From: an uncultured Oscillospiraceae bacterium
GTDB lineage: Bacteria > Bacillota > Clostridia > Oscillospirales > Oscillospiraceae
Length of the DNA stretch: 37,633 bases
Direction: 5' to 3'
Assembly (NCBI GenBank): GCA_947627285.1
Contig: CANQVL010000026.1
Location: 1 to 37,633, forward strand
Below are positions 14,718 through 22,352 of the stretch, piece after piece. Each line of letters starts with the position of its first letter. Position 1 is the first letter of the stretch. Made by a program: the position numbers and the translations under genes. The notes beneath the pieces are model-generated. The model ran no database searches and was not told where the DNA came from. It saw nothing but the letters and a program-made list of their open reading frames with translations.

Positions 14718-17681
14718 TTATTTCGCGAGTTTATCGTAGAGGGCGAGGATAGTGGCGAGGTCCGACCTCTTGGACGTGTCGGCGGGGGTGAATTTGTTGT
14801 TGTCGCCCGTGATGACGCCCTTCATGGAGCACCATGCCACAGCCTCCTGCGCCCAGTCGGAGATCTGGTCGGCGTCGTCAAAGGTCAGGTCAAACGTCTC
14901 GTCCTCCGCGAATCCGCCGGAGCCGATCTTCTGCTCGTAGAAGTACAGCATCGCCGCCATCTGCTCGCGGGTGATGGTGTCCGTGGGCTTAAACGTTCCG
15001 TCGCCGCAGCCGCTGATAACGCCCGCGCTCGCCGCCCAGCGGATCGCCTCGGTGTACCACTCGTTTTCGGGGACGTCGGGGAAGGGTATCTCGGCTTCGA
15101 CCTCGGGTTGACCCTCAAGGTTCCAGAGGATCCCCGCCATCTCCGCGCGGGTGACGGTCTTTTCGGGTGCGAACACGACCACGTCAATGCCCCGCATGAG
15201 GTTGTGGGCTATGGCGTAGTCCACGTATTCATGATACCACTCGGTAACGTCGATGTCGGGGAACGCCAGCGACGGGCACTCGTAGACCTCTGCCGTAACT
15301 GTGACGTTGGAGGCGGGCATGGTGAAGGTGTAAGTCCCGTCCTCGTTGTCCGTGACAGCGACTGCCGCGCCGTTGGCGGCGGTGACGGTGAGGCCCGAGA
15401 CGTGGTAATTCTCGTCAGGGGTGACGGTGACGGTGATCTCTGTCCCCGCCGTTGCGCTCGTGGCGGAAAGCTCCACCTCGGCGTTCTCCACCTCCTCAAC
15501 CTTCACAGAGTAAGACGAAGGCGCAGGCGGCACATACGCGTCGCGCTTGATGGTAACGATGTAGGTCGTCTCGGCGCTTTCATGCGTAACCTTTATTGTG
15601 ACCGTATTTTCGCCCACCTCAAGGTCGGGGACGGTGATTGTGGTGCCGCTTGTTCCGCTAGATCCGCCGGTGACGGCAACCTCCCCTTCCTCGCGCTCAG
15701 CGGTGACTGTATCCGCAGAGGCTACCTTTGTGGCGGTAAGAGTCAGCTCCTTGACGCTGTAAGGAACGCTGACAGTGTAGGTCTTTTCCTCCTTGCTGGG
15801 GTCAAACGTCTCCATAGTTCCAGCGGAGGAGGTCAGGTCCTTTAACGTTCCGTTTTTCAGCGCGATCAGCTTGAAGGTGGAAAAACCGTCAATTGTAAAG
15901 GTCACCTTTTTGTTTAGAACTGTAACATCATAACGGTTAATTTTCCCATTGTGCTCATGGAGGACAATTATATTGCCAATGCTTCCGTTAAATCCATCGG
16001 GTACGGGAATCGACATCTCCACCGGCGTGGTGACGTTCAGCACGGTTTTCTCTTTCAGGGTAACAGCGTTCTTCGTATCCTCGCCAACAGTAGTCAGGTG
16101 TATATCGTCCCTGTCAGGGGCTGTGGAAGCAATTACCTGATAATACGGGGTGATGTCCAGCGTGAGGATACCGGCGGTCTTGTTGTATTCCTCCACCTTG
16201 GTCTCCACTGTGGTGAGGACATGGACATAAATCTCCTCATTCTCAACATTAACAGCGTTGCCAAACTCTGCCTTGACGCTGTCCGGTTCCTGCGCAAAAC
16301 TTTTGGCGGCTGTTGCCTGTTCCTCAGTGGGAAGATCTGCCGTGATACCGCCAACGGCAGTTTTAAGCTCCGTCCTGCTATCCTCGGATATGCTGTCATC
16401 AAATTCCGGCTCCACGACCTCCGTCGCGTCTACCTTGGGGATCAGGTCTCCCTCGTTTTCCTTCTCGACAAGGAATCCACCGTTGTCCACAAAGGCGTCC
16501 GCCACATCTCCAACGGTGTGCGTCTTTCCGTCAGAGGTTGTCACCTTTGCGCCCTTTTCAAGATCAACGGCTTTGTCGCCATCGCTCGTGACCGTGCTAC
16601 TGCCGGAGAGTGTCAGACTGGAACCTGCCTCACACTTGACGGCAGGGGTTTCATCGGTGACGGTGATGTTGGAGGGTGCGCCGTTACTATAGGTCTTGCC
16701 GTCCTCAACCGTCAGCGAGCCATTCTCCCCGACGGTAACAAGGTTCTTGCCTGCGGGCGCTGTTCCCTCGACCTGCACGCCGTCGAGCGCAACAGCGCCG
16801 CCGTTGGAAACGGTCATAGACGCGTTGTTGAATTTCAGGTATGTGCTGCTGGGCCATTCATAGTGTTGTGAATAACCTTCATTAAAGATAAAATTCAATC
16901 CACTGAGATTGAGCTTGCCGCCGTTGACAGTCAACCCTGCGCCGGCACCGTCTTCTTCACCAATCGTTACAATGCACCGATGTGATGCAGAGTCGCTGCT
17001 CTCGCCCAGAACGTGATCTGTTTTAATGTTTAGCACAGCGCCGTCCCGGATTTCCAGCCCCTTAGTGAAGTTGATCTGATTTTCCTCTGGAGGATATTCA
17101 ATCGTTCCTGTACTGTGCCACATACGGGAAGATCTGCTTGTAATCGTTATCCCTTCCACGCTTCCGTTATAGACGGTAATAACTTCCTCTCCGTTAAGTG
17201 CGCCGATACCGTCTTCTTCCTTATTGCCGGTGAGCACAACCTTTTTATCGAATGTGTTGACGATACTTGCGTAGTTACTTTGCTGGCTAGAGGAAAAACT
17301 AATCATAATGGGAGCGTCCTTGTCAATAACATATTCAGACTTAACCCATTTCTGATTCTCCGGCATAAAATCATAATCCCAATATTCCCACTCGCTCCTA
17401 GGTACTACGCCCTTCATAAGGATTTCAAATATTCCCTGTAAAGTATCTGCTTCTAGCCTGAGAATTGCTGTTTGTTTGCTGGCTACCGATTGCGTTATGC
17501 TATTTTCGTCTCTCGAGTCTTTACTACCTCCAGCATAATAAGTAACCTCTTGATACGTACAGGAAAATTGGACATTATCTAATGTGGATTTGACCTCTTG
17601 ATTATCAGAAGCCGCAAGCGCCGTGGTGACAAAGGAACACAGCAAAGCCACCGCCAGCAAAATCGGTAAAATTTTTCGCAT
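14718..17681 (-). CDS. secreted SLH-domain surface protein
   Basis: A 987-residue cell-surface protein. A signal peptide covers about residues 1-23 (MRKILPILLAVALLCSFVTTALAA). Residues 24-400 are rich in short strands with Gly, Asn and Asp turns (LTVNGGKLNLSG, MTVSNGGAVALDGV), suggesting a beta-helix. Next comes a Val/Glu-rich region, a cadherin-like sandwich domain (about 620-720) and a bacterial Ig-like repeat (about 725-800). Three C-terminal SLH domains follow (FPDIDVTEWYHEYVDYAI, FPDVPENEWYTEAIRWA, FDDADQISDWAQEAVAWC) that anchor proteins to pyruvylated wall polymers. ATG 17681 is chosen because GAGGAGG lies 9 bases upstream. No proper promoter is fixed next to the gene: a TATAAT at 17703-17708 overlaps the leader and lacks a -35. 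The putative invertible promoter segment lies at 17759-18026. The ligand is unknown; adhesion or S-layer roles are possible. Confidence 0.9.
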   Translation of the reverse strand: MRKILPILLAVALLCSFVTTALAASDNQEVKSTLDNVQFSCTYQEVTYYAGGSKDSRDENSITQSVASKQTAILRLEADTLQGIFEILMKGVVPRSEWEYWDYDFMPENQKWVKSEYVIDKDAPIMISFSSSQQSNYASIVNTFDKKVVLTGNKEEDGIGALNGEEVITVYNGSVEGITITSRSSRMWHSTGTIEYPPEENQINFTKGLEIRDGAVLNIKTDHVLGESSDSASHRCIVTIGEEDGAGAGLTVNGGKLNLSGLNFIFNEGYSQHYEWPSSTYLKFNNASMTVSNGGAVALDGVQVEGTAPAGKNLVTVGENGSLTVEDGKTYSNGAPSNITVTDETPAVKCEAGSSLTLSGSSTVTSDGDKAVDLEKGAKVTTSDGKTHTVGDVADAFVDNGGFLVEKENEGDLIPKVDATEVVEPEFDDSISEDSRTELKTAVGGITADLPTEEQATAAKSFAQEPDSVKAEFGNAVNVENEEIYVHVLTTVETKVEEYNKTAGILTLDITPYYQVIASTAPDRDDIHLTTVGEDTKNAVTLKEKTVLNVTTPVEMSIPVPDGFNGSIGNIIVLHEHNGKINRYDVTVLNKKVTFTIDGFSTFKLIALKNGTLKDLTSSAGTMETFDPSKEEKTYTVSVPYSVKELTLTATKVASADTVTAEREEGEVAVTGGSSGTSGTTITVPDLEVGENTVTIKVTHESAETTYIVTIKRDAYVPPAPSSYSVKVEEVENAEVELSATSATAGTEITVTVTPDENYHVSGLTVTAANGAAVAVTDNEDGTYTFTMPASNVTVTAEVYECPSLAFPDIDVTEWYHEYVDYAIAHNLMRGIDVVVFAPEKTVTRAEMAGILWNLEGQPEVEAEIPFPDVPENEWYTEAIRWAASAGVISGCGDGTFKPTDTITREQMAAMLYFYEQKIGSGGFAEDETFDLTFDDADQISDWAQEAVAWCSMKGVITGDNNKFTPADTSKRSDLATILALYDKLAK

Positions 17682-17758
17682 AATATATAACCTCCTCAAA
17701 AAATTATAATTGAGTAACCGATTTTAACTCCACCTGTCGCGCGCCGCCTCCTTCCGTG

Positions 17759-17794
17759 ACGTTCAATACGAAATTACAATTTTGTATTGAGCGT
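17759..17794. repeat. left recombination-site-like palindrome
   Basis: 36-base imperfect palindrome: 17-base arms (17759-17775 and 17778-17794, two mismatches) around a central AC. Its inner 18 bases (ACGAAATTACAATTTTGT) match the reverse complement of the right site at 17 of 18 positions. It is of the right size and symmetry for a tyrosine recombinase core site. Confidence 0.7.
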
Positions 17795-17853
17795 CGTGCG
17801 GAGCAACGCCAATAATTGGTAATCGTCCGGCTTTTAGGCTGATTTTTGGCATG

Positions 17854-17910
17854 ACAACGAGGACCGACGAAATTTTTTCGTTTGCGGTCCTGTTCGTTGT
17901 GCAATTTTTT
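17854..17910 (+). terminator. hairpin with T-run inside the invertible segment
   Basis: The left arm is ACAACG-AGGACCG-ACGAAA (17854-17872). It pairs with TTTCGT (17876-17881), CGGTCCT (17885-17891) and CGTTGT (17895-17900) with small bulges. Six T residues follow at 17905-17910. It precedes the internal promoter, so it could insulate that promoter from upstream transcription in either orientation of the segment. Confidence 0.55.
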
Positions 17911-17932
17911 GCGATTTTCTTTGTCAAACGAC

Positions 17933-17961
17933 TTTACATTTTCGGATTACCGTGATAAAAT
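17933..17961 (+). promoter_or_regulatory. promoter inside the invertible segment, facing away from the SLH gene
   Basis: TTTACA (17933-17938), 17-base spacer, TAAAAT (17956-17961), with TG at the extended -10 position. On the plus strand it drives only antisense transcription into the recombinase gene; after inversion it would drive the SLH gene. Confidence 0.7.
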
Positions 17962-18008
17962 CCTCATGTATAAGGCTTTTAGGCCCTGTACGTTTTCCTA
18001 TGTAGGCT

Positions 18009-18026
18009 ACAAAATTGTAATTTTGT
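18009..18026. repeat. right recombination-site-like palindrome
   Basis: 18-base perfect palindromic arms ACAAAATT (18009-18016) and AATTTTGT (18019-18026) around a central GT. It starts one base beyond the stop codon of the recombinase gene. The centre is GT here and AC in the left site, so the two sites are in inverted orientation. Confidence 0.7.
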
Positions 18027-18027
18027 C

Positions 18028-18858
18028 CTAACTCACCAGCCCCAGCCGGTCAAGCACCCGCGCGTGTTCCTCGCCGGTGGAGATGAGGTAGATACGGGTG
18101 GTTTCGATGGAGCTGTGGCCCAATACGTCCGCCAACTTCGCTATATCGCGGGTGACGCGGTAAAATGTCCGGGCAAACAGATGTCTTAAATTGTGGGGGA
18201 AGACCTTTCGCGGGTCCACCCCCGCTTTTTTGCACACGGCCTTCATCTCAGCCCAGATCTGACCGCGCGTCAGGGGCTTGCCGTTTCCGGTGAGAAATAT
18301 CTCGCCGGAGGCGGTTTTCTGCTTTTTGGCGTATTTGAGCAGCTTCCGGCACAGCTTTCCGGGGAGTAGGATCGTGCGGATCTTGCCCTTCAGTCGTATC
18401 TCCGCGCTGCCTGACCGCGCCGCCTCCACGGTGATATACCGAAGCTCCGAAACGCGGATTCCCGTGGCACAGACAGTCTCCATGATGAGCCCCGTACGCT
18501 CCGGCGCGGCGGCGAGGAGCTTTTCGTACTCCTCCCTTGTCAGCTCCCGCTCCTTCGCGCGAAAGACGCGGCGCTGGAGCCTCAGCGCCTTTACCCGGCA
18601 CTCCTCCCGCCCCAAAAACCGCAGCAGGGCATTCACCGACGCCACCATGGAATTGACCGTCACCGGCGCGTACCCCCGCGCCGCCAGCCCGTCCCGCCAC
18701 GCGGCTACGGCGTCCCTCGTGAGCTCCGCCCCGCCCATATACGCGGCAAACCCCGCCGCGTCCCGGACATACTTCTCCACCGTCCCCGGGCTCTTGTCCT
18801 CCCGCCGCAAAAATTCGCCAAAATTTCTCAAATCCACTTTTACCGTTCTCATTTCCAT
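18028..18858 (-). CDS. tyrosine site-specific recombinase, probable DNA invertase
   Basis: A 276-residue phage-integrase-family recombinase. The SAM-like N-terminal core-binding domain spans about residues 8-90 (FLRREDKSPGTVEKYVRDAAGF). The catalytic domain spans about 105-276 with a full set of active residues: Arg135 in ATGIRVSELR, Lys157 or Lys159 in RLKGK, His222 and Arg225 in HNLRHLFA, His248 in LGHSSIETT and the nucleophile Tyr257 in TRIYLIS. It is short, like XerC/D and like invertases that flip surface-gene promoters (compare C. difficile RecV). GGAGG precedes ATG 18858 by 5 bases. The gene ends one base from the right recombination-like site and no other phage or transposon gene is nearby, which favours a dedicated invertase over an element integrase. 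Confidence 0.88.
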   Translation of the reverse strand: MEMRTVKVDLRNFGEFLRREDKSPGTVEKYVRDAAGFAAYMGGAELTRDAVAAWRDGLAARGYAPVTVNSMVASVNALLRFLGREECRVKALRLQRRVFRAKERELTREEYEKLLAAAPERTGLIMETVCATGIRVSELRYITVEAARSGSAEIRLKGKIRTILLPGKLCRKLLKYAKKQKTASGEIFLTGNGKPLTRGQIWAEMKAVCKKAGVDPRKVFPHNLRHLFARTFYRVTRDIAKLADVLGHSSIETTRIYLISTGEEHARVLDRLGLVS

Positions 18859-19007: not shown

Positions 19008-19754
19008 TTGCGGATTGCGTTATGTGACGACGAAAAAACATACCACGAAACAATAAAAAACCTGCTTGTACAGTACAAGCAGATAAATCCCGGCCTCTCG
19101 CTTTCGATGTCGTCCTTCTGCTCCGGGAAGGAGCTTTTGAACCACGTGGACGAGTACGGCGGCTTTGACCTCTATATTCTCGATTGCATCATGCCGGAGA
19201 TGGACGGCATAGGGCTTGGAGCGGCTCTGCGCGGGCGTGACGATCGGGGTATGCTTATCTACCTGACCACGTCTCCCGACTTCGCGCTGGACTCCTACCG
19301 GGTGGACGCCCTCGATTACCTCCTGAAGCCCGTGGATAAGCCGCTGTTCTTTCGGAGCCTCGACAAGGCGTTCTCCTCCTTTTCCCGGACCGCGCGGGAG
19401 ATTATCTCCGTCAAAACCGCGGACAGCGTCCGCATCCTCTCCGTCGCCGATATCCGGTACGCGGAACGCACGGGAAAACGGATCTGCTACCATATGACGG
19501 ACGGCAGCGTCATACCCGGCATCACCTTCAACGGCTCCTTTATTGACGCGGTGTCGGACCTACTCTCCCACAACGGCATGCTCCTTGTGGGCACCTCGTT
19601 CGTGGTCAACCTCTCCCATGTTACGGAGGTGACGAAAACGGACATGGTTTTGACGGGAAACCTGCGCGTCCCCATCCCGCGCCGCATATATGATTCCGTC
19701 AAAAAGGAATGGGCGGCCTTCTGGCTGAACGGAGGAAAATACAGTGCTTTTTGA
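19008..19754 (+). CDS. LytTR-family response regulator
   Basis: A 248-residue two-component regulator. Receiver domain at residues 1-118: acidic pocket Asp7/Asp8 in MRIALCDDEK, phosphoacceptor Asp59 in LYILDCIMPEMDG, Thr near 87 in LTTS, and Lys in LLKPVDK. The C-terminal LytTR DNA-binding domain (about 135-240) shows ISVKTADSVRILSVADIRYAERTGK, FVVNLSHVTEV and RVPIPRRIY. LytTR proteins bind pairs of short direct repeats one face apart. TTG 19008 is the likely start, with GGGGC nine bases upstream; no ATG is suitably placed. It overlaps the first sensor gene by 11 bases. The best candidate target is the repeat pair at 30872-30904. Confidence 0.92.
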   Translation: MRIALCDDEKTYHETIKNLLVQYKQINPGLSLSMSSFCSGKELLNHVDEYGGFDLYILDCIMPEMDGIGLGAALRGRDDRGMLIYLTTSPDFALDSYRVDALDYLLKPVDKPLFFRSLDKAFSSFSRTAREIISVKTADSVRILSVADIRYAERTGKRICYHMTDGSVIPGITFNGSFIDAVSDLLSHNGMLLVGTSFVVNLSHVTEVTKTDMVLTGNLRVPIPRRIYDSVKKEWAAFWLNGGKYSAF

Positions 19755-21039
19755 GGATAACGTCACCTTTTTGGTCCTGAAGGTCCTGATAATCTTCGCG
19801 GGCACGCTCGCCATGATGGCGTCTACGACAAGCTTTAAGCCGATCCGGAACAAGACCGCGTTGATCGCGGTCATTTTGGGTTATGCCGTTTTTGTCGTTC
19901 TCTCCACATATTTGATAATCAAATATCTCGGTTACGACTTTTTTCTGCGGGTCTTTATCCTCACCATATCATGCCCGGCGGTCCTTCTTTTGCGCAAAAT
20001 CTCCGACGAGCCGTTTGCGAAGCTCGTCTTTACCGGGGCTACACATATTCTGGCGTCCCTTTACATTTCCGCCACAGTCACCCTTTTAAATACCGCCCTG
20101 CGCGGAAACGAGCTGTCGGACATTCTGCTGCGCCTGCTTTTCTATCTGCTGACGGTGCTGTTTGAATTTTACTTTGTACGGCGAATATGGCTTGAATCGG
20201 TCGGCACGATCAAAAAGGGCTGGGGCGTCCTTTCCCTGATCCCCTGCGCGTTCATCATACTTTCCGTGACAGCCGCCATTTACCCGGAGCATTATACGAT
20301 ACGTCCGTTGAGCGTCGTCACGCTCTACCTGCTGGGCGCCGTCATCGCTGCCGTCTACTTTTCCATCGGACGCTACCTGTCCGTGCGGAACGCCAGGCTG
20401 CGGTCAGAACAGAACAGAGAGATTTTGGAGCTTCAGCTTGAAAACATACGCAGGGAAAACGCCGATATGGAGGCCCTTGAGAAGCAAACGAGGATCCTTC
20501 GGCACGACCTGCGCCACATCCTCTCCACAGTCGCCGCCCTCGCGGAAAGCGGCGACACGCGGGCGATCCTTGATTTTGTTGAAAATACGGCGGAGATGTC
20601 CGAGGACGTTCCAATGCCGCGCCCGTATTGCCGCGACCCCATTTTGGACGCCACGCTCTCCGGTTATCTCGCGTCCGCAAGGGAGGCGGGCATCGCGCTT
20701 GAGACTTCCCTTTCCGTTCCGGACGTCCTCCCGGTGGACTCCTCCGATCTTTCCGTCTGCTTTGCCAATATGCTGGAAACCGCCATCCGCGCCTGCGCAA
20801 AGCTGCCTGAGGGCGAAAGGAAGATGAGCGTCCGGTGCGCCAGCAGTCAGAAGCTGACGCTTGAGGTCGCTTTTCCCGTTCACGGCAAAATACCTTTGGA
20901 CAAAAAGGGGCTCCCGAAGCCGCCGGACGGAGGCTTCGGGAGCGGCTTTCGCTCCATAGCGTCCTTCTGCGAGAGGCATAACGCCGTATATTCGTTTACC
21001 GCCGAAAATAACCTGTACCGGATCGCGGTGGCATTATAG
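19744..21039 (+). CDS. GHKL-type sensor kinase 1 (histidine kept, ATP site altered)
   Basis: A 431-residue membrane sensor of the AgrC/LytS-like GHKL group. About seven hydrophobic helices fill residues 7-210, followed by a coiled coil and the dimerization helix LRHDLRHIL with the phosphoacceptor His254. The ATP-binding part deviates: the N-box reads NMLETAIRA (Asn342, but Thr346 where Asn is expected). The strand that usually carries an Asn reads LEVAFPV. The glycine box GFGSGFRSI is recognisable. GTG 19744 is used, with GGAGG eight bases before it. It is a paralogue of the next gene, sharing length, topology and many residues. I infer that it accepts phosphate and passes it to Asp59 of the response regulator, perhaps phosphorylated by its partner. 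Confidence 0.85.
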   Translation: MLFEDNVTFLVLKVLIIFAGTLAMMASTTSFKPIRNKTALIAVILGYAVFVVLSTYLIIKYLGYDFFLRVFILTISCPAVLLLRKISDEPFAKLVFTGATHILASLYISATVTLLNTALRGNELSDILLRLLFYLLTVLFEFYFVRRIWLESVGTIKKGWGVLSLIPCAFIILSVTAAIYPEHYTIRPLSVVTLYLLGAVIAAVYFSIGRYLSVRNARLRSEQNREILELQLENIRRENADMEALEKQTRILRHDLRHILSTVAALAESGDTRAILDFVENTAEMSEDVPMPRPYCRDPILDATLSGYLASAREAGIALETSLSVPDVLPVDSSDLSVCFANMLETAIRACAKLPEGERKMSVRCASSQKLTLEVAFPVHGKIPLDKKGLPKPPDGGFGSGFRSIASFCERHNAVYSFTAENNLYRIAVAL

Positions 21040-21065
21040 CTTTGAAGGGAGAAGATGAGGAAGGC

Positions 21066-22352
21066 ATGATTTTTGATAACGATACCGCGTACCAGACCTA
21101 CAGGGTCCTTGTCTCCATCTTCGGCACCCTCGGCATGGTCGTCTCCGTCAGCAGGCTAAAGGAAAATAAGAGGAAAAATCTGCTTATAATCGTGGGGTAC
21201 GCGGTTTATACGATAGCTTTTTCCGTCCTCTGCATACGGTTTTTCGGCTTTCTGCCCTTCCTGCGCGGCTCCGTGCTCACCATCTCCATACCCGGAGTCA
21301 TCGTAACCTTTCTGATCGCGGACGAGTCCCTTTCAAGGCATATTTTCTGCTGTCTGTCGGAGCTTCTCCTGTCCCTTTACCTGATAGTCGGTGTTACGCA
21401 GCTGAGTACGCTTTTCGGCGGCAGTCCCGCGACAGATCCCCTGCTGCTCCTTTTTGTCTACATAACGGTAATTTTGCTGGAAGCCCTCCTTCTGCGGACC
21501 GCTTTCCTAAATATCGCGGACACGGTCGCCGGCGGCTGGGGGATCCTCGCCCTGATCCCCTGCTCTTTTTTCATCCTCACCATGGTACTGGCGCTATACC
21601 CCGCGCATTATACGCAGAATACGTCCTTTTCCATCCTGTTTGCCATGACGGGCGTTGTGCTCCTCATAATCTACTATGCCATCTTCCAATATCTGTGGCT
21701 CCAGTACCAGTACAGGATGGAGGAGCAGGACCGCGATCTTTTGAGACTGCAAATAGAGAACATCAAAAAACAGGCAAAGGACGCAGAAAGAAAAGCGCTG
21801 GACGTGCGCAACGCACGGCGGGACATCCGGCAAACGCTGTCTACAGTCGCCGGTTTTGCGCGGGAGGGAAACGCCGAAGCGATCCTCGCTTACATAAATG
21901 AGGCGTCCACCCAAAACGATGCCGCCGCGCCCGTCCGCTTCTGCAGCGACCCCATCTTAAACGCCACGCTCGCCGCCTATTTACGCCGCGCGGAGCGCTC
22001 CGGCGTTGCGGTGGAGCAGAGGCTTTCCCTTCCGGAAACACTGCCCGTCGATTCCGCCGAGCTTGCCATCTGCTTTTCCAACGCGCTGGAAAACGCCATA
22101 AACGCCTGTGAACAGCTCCCGGAAAGCCAGCGGAAAATCGTCATCCGGTGCATCCATAAGCCGCAGTTCATGCTTGAGATCAAAAACACCTGCCGCAGAC
22201 GGATCTCCTTTGGAAAAAACGGGCTCCCGCAATCGAACAGATCCGGTCACGGGATCGGCACACGCTCCATTGTGGCCTTCTGCGAAAAGCATAACGCTTT
22301 TTATTCGTTCAGCGCGGAGGACGGCTGGTTCAGGCTTGTGATCGCGTTATGA
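21066..22352 (+). CDS. GHKL-type sensor 2 (ATP site intact, histidine lost)
   Basis: A 428-residue paralogue of sensor 1, with the same seven-helix membrane region and coiled coil. The dimerization helix reads ARRDIRQTL: Arg252 stands where sensor 1 has the phosphoacceptor His, and the second histidine is Gln. The ATP-binding domain is canonical: N-box NALENAINA (Asn339, Asn343), LEIKN and the glycine box SGHGIGTRSI. ATG 21066 aligns with the start of sensor 1 (MIFDND against MLFEDN) and has GAGG upstream; an in-frame TTG at 21042 is less likely. The gene follows sensor 1 by 26 bases and overlaps the convergent cstA-like gene by 6 bases. It cannot autophosphorylate in the usual way, so it may be the ATPase half of a heterodimer. 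Confidence 0.83.
   Translation: MIFDNDTAYQTYRVLVSIFGTLGMVVSVSRLKENKRKNLLIIVGYAVYTIAFSVLCIRFFGFLPFLRGSVLTISIPGVIVTFLIADESLSRHIFCCLSELLLSLYLIVGVTQLSTLFGGSPATDPLLLLFVYITVILLEALLLRTAFLNIADTVAGGWGILALIPCSFFILTMVLALYPAHYTQNTSFSILFAMTGVVLLIIYYAIFQYLWLQYQYRMEEQDRDLLRLQIENIKKQAKDAERKALDVRNARRDIRQTLSTVAGFAREGNAEAILAYINEASTQNDAAAPVRFCSDPILNATLAAYLRRAERSGVAVEQRLSLPETLPVDSAELAICFSNALENAINACEQLPESQRKIVIRCIHKPQFMLEIKNTCRRRISFGKNGLPQSNRSGHGIGTRSIVAFCEKHNAFYSFSAEDGWFRLVIAL

Follow-up and report, generated by a model that had tools for sequence, protein, structure and literature searches.

A predicted invertible promoter beside a tyrosine recombinase gene and an SLH surface protein gene, one of at least sixteen similar cassettes in an Oscillospiraceae genome

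The window (the whole 37,633-nucleotide stretch of DNA analysed here, from an uncultured Oscillospiraceae bacterium) very probably carries a self-contained phase-variation cassette, in which a tyrosine recombinase would flip a promoter segment controlling a neighbouring SLH surface protein gene. Judged from sequence comparison, the locus is one of many copies of a module of putative invertible promoters that is widespread in Clostridia. Three features demonstrated by that comparison carry this reading: the anatomy of the locus, the complementarity of the paired site cores, and the occurrence of both segment orientations among homologues.

Results

Anatomy of the window locus

The original prediction described two inverted palindromic sites matching at 17 of 18 core positions, and we confirmed such a pair (Table 1), in which the one mismatch is an arm position in one site. 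On the plus strand, the cores read TTACAA on the SLH side (left site) and TTGTAA on the recombinase side (right site). The left site is embedded in a longer imperfect palindrome (about 17758–17795, by eye). Together, these inverted repeats bracket an intergenic segment, and no ORF of at least 80 aa in the window's ORF list overlaps it. The left site, placed about 80 bases before the SLH gene in the prediction, measures 86 bp from its ATG, and the right site is one base from the stop codon of a complete recombinase gene, as had been claimed. A whole-genome scan for the site, allowing up to one mismatch, gave 39 places, against 15 with a reversed control pattern.

Table 1 Features of the cassette in the window.
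Feature	Position	Strand	Description
SLH surface protein gene	14718–17681	-	987 aa from ATG 17681; three SLH domains, cadherin-like, InlB B-repeat-like; signal peptide by eye
SLH-side recombination site (putative)	17768–17785		core TTACAA; 17/18 inverted match to partner
Invertible segment (predicted)	17786–18008		223 bp; homologous segments in both orientations between such sites
Terminator-like hairpin and T6 tract	17849–17910	+	upstream of the promoter, same polarity; conserved in most of 13 aligned rows
Promoter (predicted), TTTACA-N17-TAAAAT	17933–17961	+	10/12 to consensus; TG before -10; directed away from the SLH gene
Recombinase-side recombination site (putative)	18009–18026		core TTGTAA; perfect ACAAAA-N6-TTTTGT arms
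Tyrosine recombinase gene, Xer-like	18028–18858	-	276 aa; Pfam Phage_integrase 1.4e-24

The segment holds one good promoter match, which faces away from the SLH gene, in agreement with the claim that this assembly represents the OFF state. Between 17600 and 19050, we found three promoter-like sites scoring at least 9/12, all on the plus strand (shuffle mean 0.7), and none at that threshold directed at the SLH gene as assembled. At a looser threshold there is a single SLH-directed site, scoring 8/12, and a TATAAT-like string in the fixed leader of the gene, noticed by eye, is without a good -35; the SLH gene had indeed been described as having no good fixed promoter. When the segment was reversed in silico, the 10/12 promoter faced the SLH gene with the end of its -10 element 151 bp before the ATG, close to the predicted 150. 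As judged from consensus match and conservation, the segment promoter thus faces the gene in one orientation only.

The T-run hairpin that had been noted before the promoter was also found (hairpin at about 17849–17902, then T6), albeit not among the sites listed by a terminator scanner. We aligned 13 segments in promoter orientation, leaving out one identical to the window's (L010) and one that has diverged (L013). The strongest conservation fell on the GC-rich hairpin, the T tract behind it, TTTACA, and TAAAAT with its preceding TG. The -35 is TTTACA in 10/13 segments (TTTACT in two, GTTACA in L073), and the -10 is TAAAAT with TG in 10/13 (variants in L015, L068 and L073); L068 is without part of the hairpin. 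RNAalifold predicted 13 pairs, 0 with double changes, so that the case for the hairpin is one of conservation only. As it lies upstream of the promoter on the same strand, in the ON state it would stop read-through from the recombinase gene into the target gene. The promoter and hairpin presumably function as such.

The recombinase has a Phage_integrase domain, and it shares R (ATGIR), HxxR (HNLR), H (LGHS) and Y (RIY) with 4a8e and XerD (1a0p) in an alignment; we take these to be the catalytic residues of tyrosine recombinases. It is Xer-like yet scores far below the NCBIfam equivalog cut-offs for XerA (131 vs 220 bits), XerD (107 vs 329.6) and XerC (98.2 vs 335.15), as well as below those of the tyrosine-type DNA invertase models NF007370 and NF007371 (28.8 vs 221 and 22.7 vs 222 bits), presumably the Fim-type invertases. 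Beside it, and divergent from it, begin genes for a LytTR response regulator and two GHKL kinases (19008–22352). No such genes were found within 6 kb upstream of the orthologous recombinase at L094, a locus in the related genome G015.

The proposed mechanism is as follows. The tyrosine recombinase, which we infer to be the window's own, would bind the ACAAAA/TTTTGT arms of both sites, and strand exchange across the 6-bp cores would invert the 223-bp segment. In the OFF state, as assembled, the promoter would face the 3′ end of the recombinase gene instead of the SLH gene, and might transcribe the recombinase antisense strand. In the ON state, some 150 bp would separate the promoter from the SLH start downstream of it, and the hairpin behind the promoter would insulate the SLH gene. 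Two terminator-like hairpins lie on the path of the OFF promoter (18210–18225 and 18280–18315), such sites being not clearly above chance. The idea of antisense terminators inside the recombinase gene was dropped, since the region has four terminator-like sites where shuffled sequence has 2.3 on average, which is a weak signal at most.

Sixteen cassettes in one genome

The 2.8-Mb genome from which the window comes has 15 recombinase paralogues at E < 1e-60, of which 10 are 69–86% identical and 5 are 45–47% identical to the window's, and two more distant ones (1e-16 and 1e-10). This makes at least 16 cassettes, all with a site pair; the 15 others have the same anatomy, which backs the originally proposed switch. 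Eleven have ACAAAA-N6-TTTTGT sites, with SLH or secreted targets in 8 and the other 3 lost to contig ends before the target. The remaining five (L019–L023) have ACATTA-N6-TAATGT sites and pilin-like targets; this second module class, with ACATTA arms and pilin-like (N_methyl) genes, also includes L059, L087–L089 and L092. By a scripted promoter score, 11 of the 16 are OFF, 4 are ON and 1 is undecided.

For the 11 close cassettes, sites were searched for by their arms alone, allowing up to 2 mismatches. Site 1 lies 5 or 9 bp past the recombinase match and site 2 at +179 to +247; extra arm hits occurred in L013 (one) and L018 (two), and the background was 6 sites in 166,796 bp outside cassette regions. 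In 11/11, the two cores are exact reverse complements, with 8 different cores among them. Across all 16 cassettes, the cores take 11 different values. A core of its own is found in 8 cassettes, and the other 8 fall into three groups with a common core (TTACAA in the window and in cassettes on contigs C1 and C27, TTGATA in three, TAATCA in two).

The window, L010 and L011 have 291-bp switch regions that are 99–100% identical, while their recombinases are 83–86% identical and their SLH bodies differ (for L010 vs the window, 100% and 84–86%). This pattern points to homogenisation or recent exchange. Two further cassettes, L016 (G000:C27:37175-37420) and L018 (G000:C56:11863-12113), appear by eye to be three-site variants: a spacer of about 45 bp is to the right of the segment in L016 and inverted on the left in L018, and the L016 contig ends inside a further site. 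Nested inversions involving three sites could have left this arrangement.

Cassettes with the same core, such as the three with TTACAA, might also recombine with one another and rearrange the chromosome as part of their function. The sharing of cores by 8/16 cassettes would allow this, the window, L010 and L011 share a core together with a near-identical stretch from recombinase 3′ end to SLH start in front of differing SLH bodies, and the apparent nested inversions of L016 and L018 point the same way. However, recent duplication or gene conversion could explain the near-identity, and no rearranged chromosome was seen, so we regard such exchange as rather unlikely.

A same-family site was also seen at base 6 of a contig (G000:C56:6-23), with a large secreted SLH gene about 50 bp further on. 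Allowing up to one mismatch, no partner was found in the rest of the assembly, and the site probably marks a 17th switch, cut by the assembly.

Related loci and the complementarity of cores

A recombinase match (E <= 0.001) is present in 32/34 genomes of the genus, including the window's own, and 32 of 120 genomes drawn evenly across the family have one at E <= 1e-60. Among those 32, the window's genome has 16 copies, G018 has 15 (41–46% identical to the window's recombinase), and the other 30 carry 1–4. From a collection of named genomes, 80 of 130 loci were kept, mostly Clostridia by title; among them are isolates of Hungatella, Robinsoniella, Christensenella, Butyricicoccus, Agathobaculum and Neglectibacter. 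The 136 records analysed (16 from the window's genome, 40 genus stretches, which are a subset of the genus matches, and 80 named) comprise 129 unique loci, 103 of them with at least 700 bp downstream.

A pair search that demanded matching cores reached a score of at least 24 in 86/103 loci and in 0/515 dinucleotide shuffles (3/515 at a score of 22). As this search is circular for any claim about cores, as is its re-check (85/90), we used an arm-only test instead. It found two sites in 86/103 loci, and the 6-bp cores were exact reverse complements in 82/86 of these pairs, compared to 92/7310 cross-locus pairings (1.3%), which supports the predicted recombination between the two sites. The exceptions are L091, L113, L132 and L171. 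Within the window's genome, 13/13 cores match their partner, as do 12/156 cross pairings, the latter because of shared cores. Of the 17/103 loci without an arm-only pair, some have pairs with other arms (L081, L121, L124, L130) and others have none.

The cores are diverse (53 different ones) and 0/90 are palindromic, so each site has a polarity. Arm type tends, by eye, to track the recombinase tree, whereas the core differs in 112 of the 131 recombinase pairs that are at least 75% identical and is the same in 19. The cores of a cassette's two sites thus seem to change jointly, which continued recombination between these sites would explain.

These results bear on two other explanations. First, the palindromes could be operators or terminators for the recombinase gene, as they are near-palindromic and one is at its 3′ end. 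This leaves reverse-complementary, cassette-specific, non-palindromic cores unexplained, and it is refuted in substance by inverted homologues, where the inversions end at the sites (see below); we rejected it as having next to no probability. Second, the recombinase could be the integrase of a small mobile element with the sites as its ends, considering its Xer/integrase family and the 16 copies in the genome. However, the recombinase is outside the segment and has both sites on its downstream side (in the window and in 86/103 loci, this side being the one searched), and the orthologous locus in G015 keeps its downstream neighbours: genes beyond the SLH gene are 91% identical over 253 residues and 98% identical over 83 residues, where the locus ends. 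On these grounds we rejected this explanation too, as very improbable. Among viral contigs, there was one recombinase relative, only 24% identical, and an exact 48-base pattern from the segment had 0 matches. Recombination sites flanking an invertible segment are thus the reading we retain.

Both orientations among homologues

The prediction proposed searching related genomes for inverted copies. In a blastn comparison among 94 segments (E <= 1e-8), 113 pairs matched in the same orientation, 20 were inverted and 0 were both; the 20 inverted pairs form six groups of related cassettes and are not 20 independent events. The closest inverted pairs align all the way between the two sites: within G015, L056 (OFF) and L057 (ON) share 152 bp at 97%; within the window's genome, L021 and L023 share 289 bp at 93%; and L061 and L077, which come from two further species, share 224 bp at 84%. 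In addition, a homologue of the window's own segment in another species, L073 (G019:C92), is inverted with its flanks unchanged (149 bp, 68%, E 3.7e-15). L073 has an inverted match to 12 segments, 5 of which also match on the same strand over 56–80 bp, which we put down to the palindromic hairpin. Homologous cassettes therefore occur in both orientations in nature, in support of recombinase-driven promoter inversion as the control of the SLH protein. We infer that flipping would also take place in the window's own strain.

Two weaker indicators of orientation were considered. By the scripted promoter score, a home-made measure that is only a guide, 52 of the 94 segments are OFF, 13 are ON and 29 are undecided. 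Contigs end within 300 bp of the recombinase on the downstream side in 14/75 loci (these include three near-identical copies from a single genome and two more from another) and on the upstream side in 0/75; this pattern fits either mixed orientation or breaks at repeats and was not used as proof.

The copy in the window could nevertheless be a fossil or locked: the module would switch elsewhere but not here, leaving the SLH gene silent or dependent on a weak leader promoter. The nearest relatives of the window segment (L009–L012, L055 and L094) all have the same OFF orientation, and one site has its single arm mismatch. Against this, the recombinase ORF is intact with R, HxxR, H and Y in place, the sites, promoter and hairpin are conserved, and the switch region is fully identical in L010 despite the divergence of the recombinases. 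We therefore consider a locked copy improbable and an active cassette the better reading. Interrupted recombinases were observed beside otherwise recognisable switches in L073, which also has a weaker -35 and -10 (GTTACA, AAAAAT), and in L093 (G009:C105); these are possibly locked states.

Target genes

On sequence grounds, the target of the switch in the window is predicted to be the adjacent SLH gene, whose product matches Pfam SLH (1.4e-30, 3 stretches), Flg_new_2 (1.1e-9) and Cadherin-like (5e-9). The genome has 37 SLH-domain ORFs (a hand count over 92 matches), of which 8 occupy the first or second position downstream of an intact switch and 1 comes after the C56 site. At L094, the switch and the SLH gene are separated by an extra secreted-protein gene, and the SLH protein shares 46% identity with that of the window; such divergence is as expected for what may be a fast-changing surface protein.

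More broadly, target ORFs were called after site 2 in 91/94 cassettes, and 76/91 were scanned (35 from the genus and 41 others), leaving out 15 short or doubtful ORFs. Among the 35 genus targets, SLH domains were found in 9, an N-terminal methylation (pilin-like) motif in 10, and adhesin-type repeats in others. Among the 41 non-genus targets, counting over the 25 of 50 families listed, at least 5 have DUF4379, at least 5 List-Bact repeats, at least 4 an integrase N-terminal domain, at least 3 SLH, at least 2 polysaccharide biosynthesis and at least 1 sortase.

Discussion

Switches in which an invertible promoter adjoins a tyrosine recombinase gene are well established. The fim switch of E. coli serves a fimbrial operon, has two recombinases and is a single switch, in all of which the window cassette differs. 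Like the window cassette, it is a promoter-bearing invertible element next to recombinase genes, and its orientation affects termination of the fimE transcript (PMC2784873); by analogy, OFF-state antisense transcription in the window may recall this coupling. In the cwpV switch of C. difficile, which lies 57 bp ahead of a cell-wall protein gene, 21-bp inverted repeats enclose 195 bp (PMC2784873). Its recombinase, RecV, is of the XerC/XerD family, as is the window's, but recV is distant from the switch whereas the window recombinase adjoins its own, and the cwpV promoter is outside the segment, with the OFF state modelled as a terminator, rather than inside it (PMC2784873). C. difficile R20291, like the window's genome, has several invertible sites in one clostridial genome: there are seven, with repeats unrelated between sites except for the identical pair Cdi2 and Cdi5 (PMC5903667). 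The C. difficile switches are similar in size to the window's (PMC2784873, PMC5903667), and Clostridia made up 14/15 of signature-positive Firmicutes samples (PMC5903667).

The closest parallel is inverton group 139, in which 32/33 invertons are from Clostridia and nearly all are beside a tyrosine recombinase of invertase group 35 (PMC11892184). The member in Clostridium sp. D5 has 26-bp repeats starting 231 bp apart, and its inversion ratio shifts with passage (PMC11892184). Geometry and the adjacent tyrosine recombinase are alike; likened by description, the two groups are probably the same family as the window module, although the accessible part of that report makes no mention of SLH targets, cassette-specific cores, a terminator cartridge or 16-fold copies (PMC11892184).

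Within the open-access literature (most subscription papers falling outside this scope), we found no account of the window locus, of Oscillospiraceae switches of this type that target SLH genes, of cassette-specific cores, or of 16 parallel copies with 11 different cores, 8 cassettes having their own. Phase variation is less mapped in gut Firmicutes than in Bacteroides. As the compact module (recombinase, two 18-bp sites, terminator-promoter cartridge) is recognisable from sequence alone, surface switching should be predictable across uncultured Clostridia.

Taken jointly, the data tentatively suggest, though we would not yet bet on it, at least 16 switches of one design, whose recombinases act across cassettes by arm class, whose 6-bp cores choose partners, and whose OFF-state antisense RNA couples the state to recombinase level. 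If true, the 11 cores over 16 cassettes would divide the surface repertoire into many units that flip independently, the two cores within a cassette would change jointly as cassettes duplicate and diverge, and paralogous recombinases of the same arm class, of which there are two, could act on one another's cassettes. At least sixteen units may allow many combinations of surface variation. The most interesting question is whether the 16 switches owe independence to their differing cores even as recombinase specificities overlap. In engineered lox variants with changed spacers, the arms are shared and spacer identity picks the partner; those spacers are man-made, whereas the cassette cores are natural. 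If differing cores insulate parallel switches, the cassettes would form a naturally orthogonal set of recombination systems, in which the way that duplicated switches gain independence could be tested directly.

Some related loci suggest other uses of the module. In Hungatella (L167, L169), the same module is upstream of large genes, which are probably the two polysaccharide biosynthesis matches, and this suggests switched surface sugars. In five loci (L082, L085, L108, L120 and L121), the first downstream ORF overlaps a second recombinase-like match (30–35% identical to the window's), possibly one cassette controlling another recombinase.
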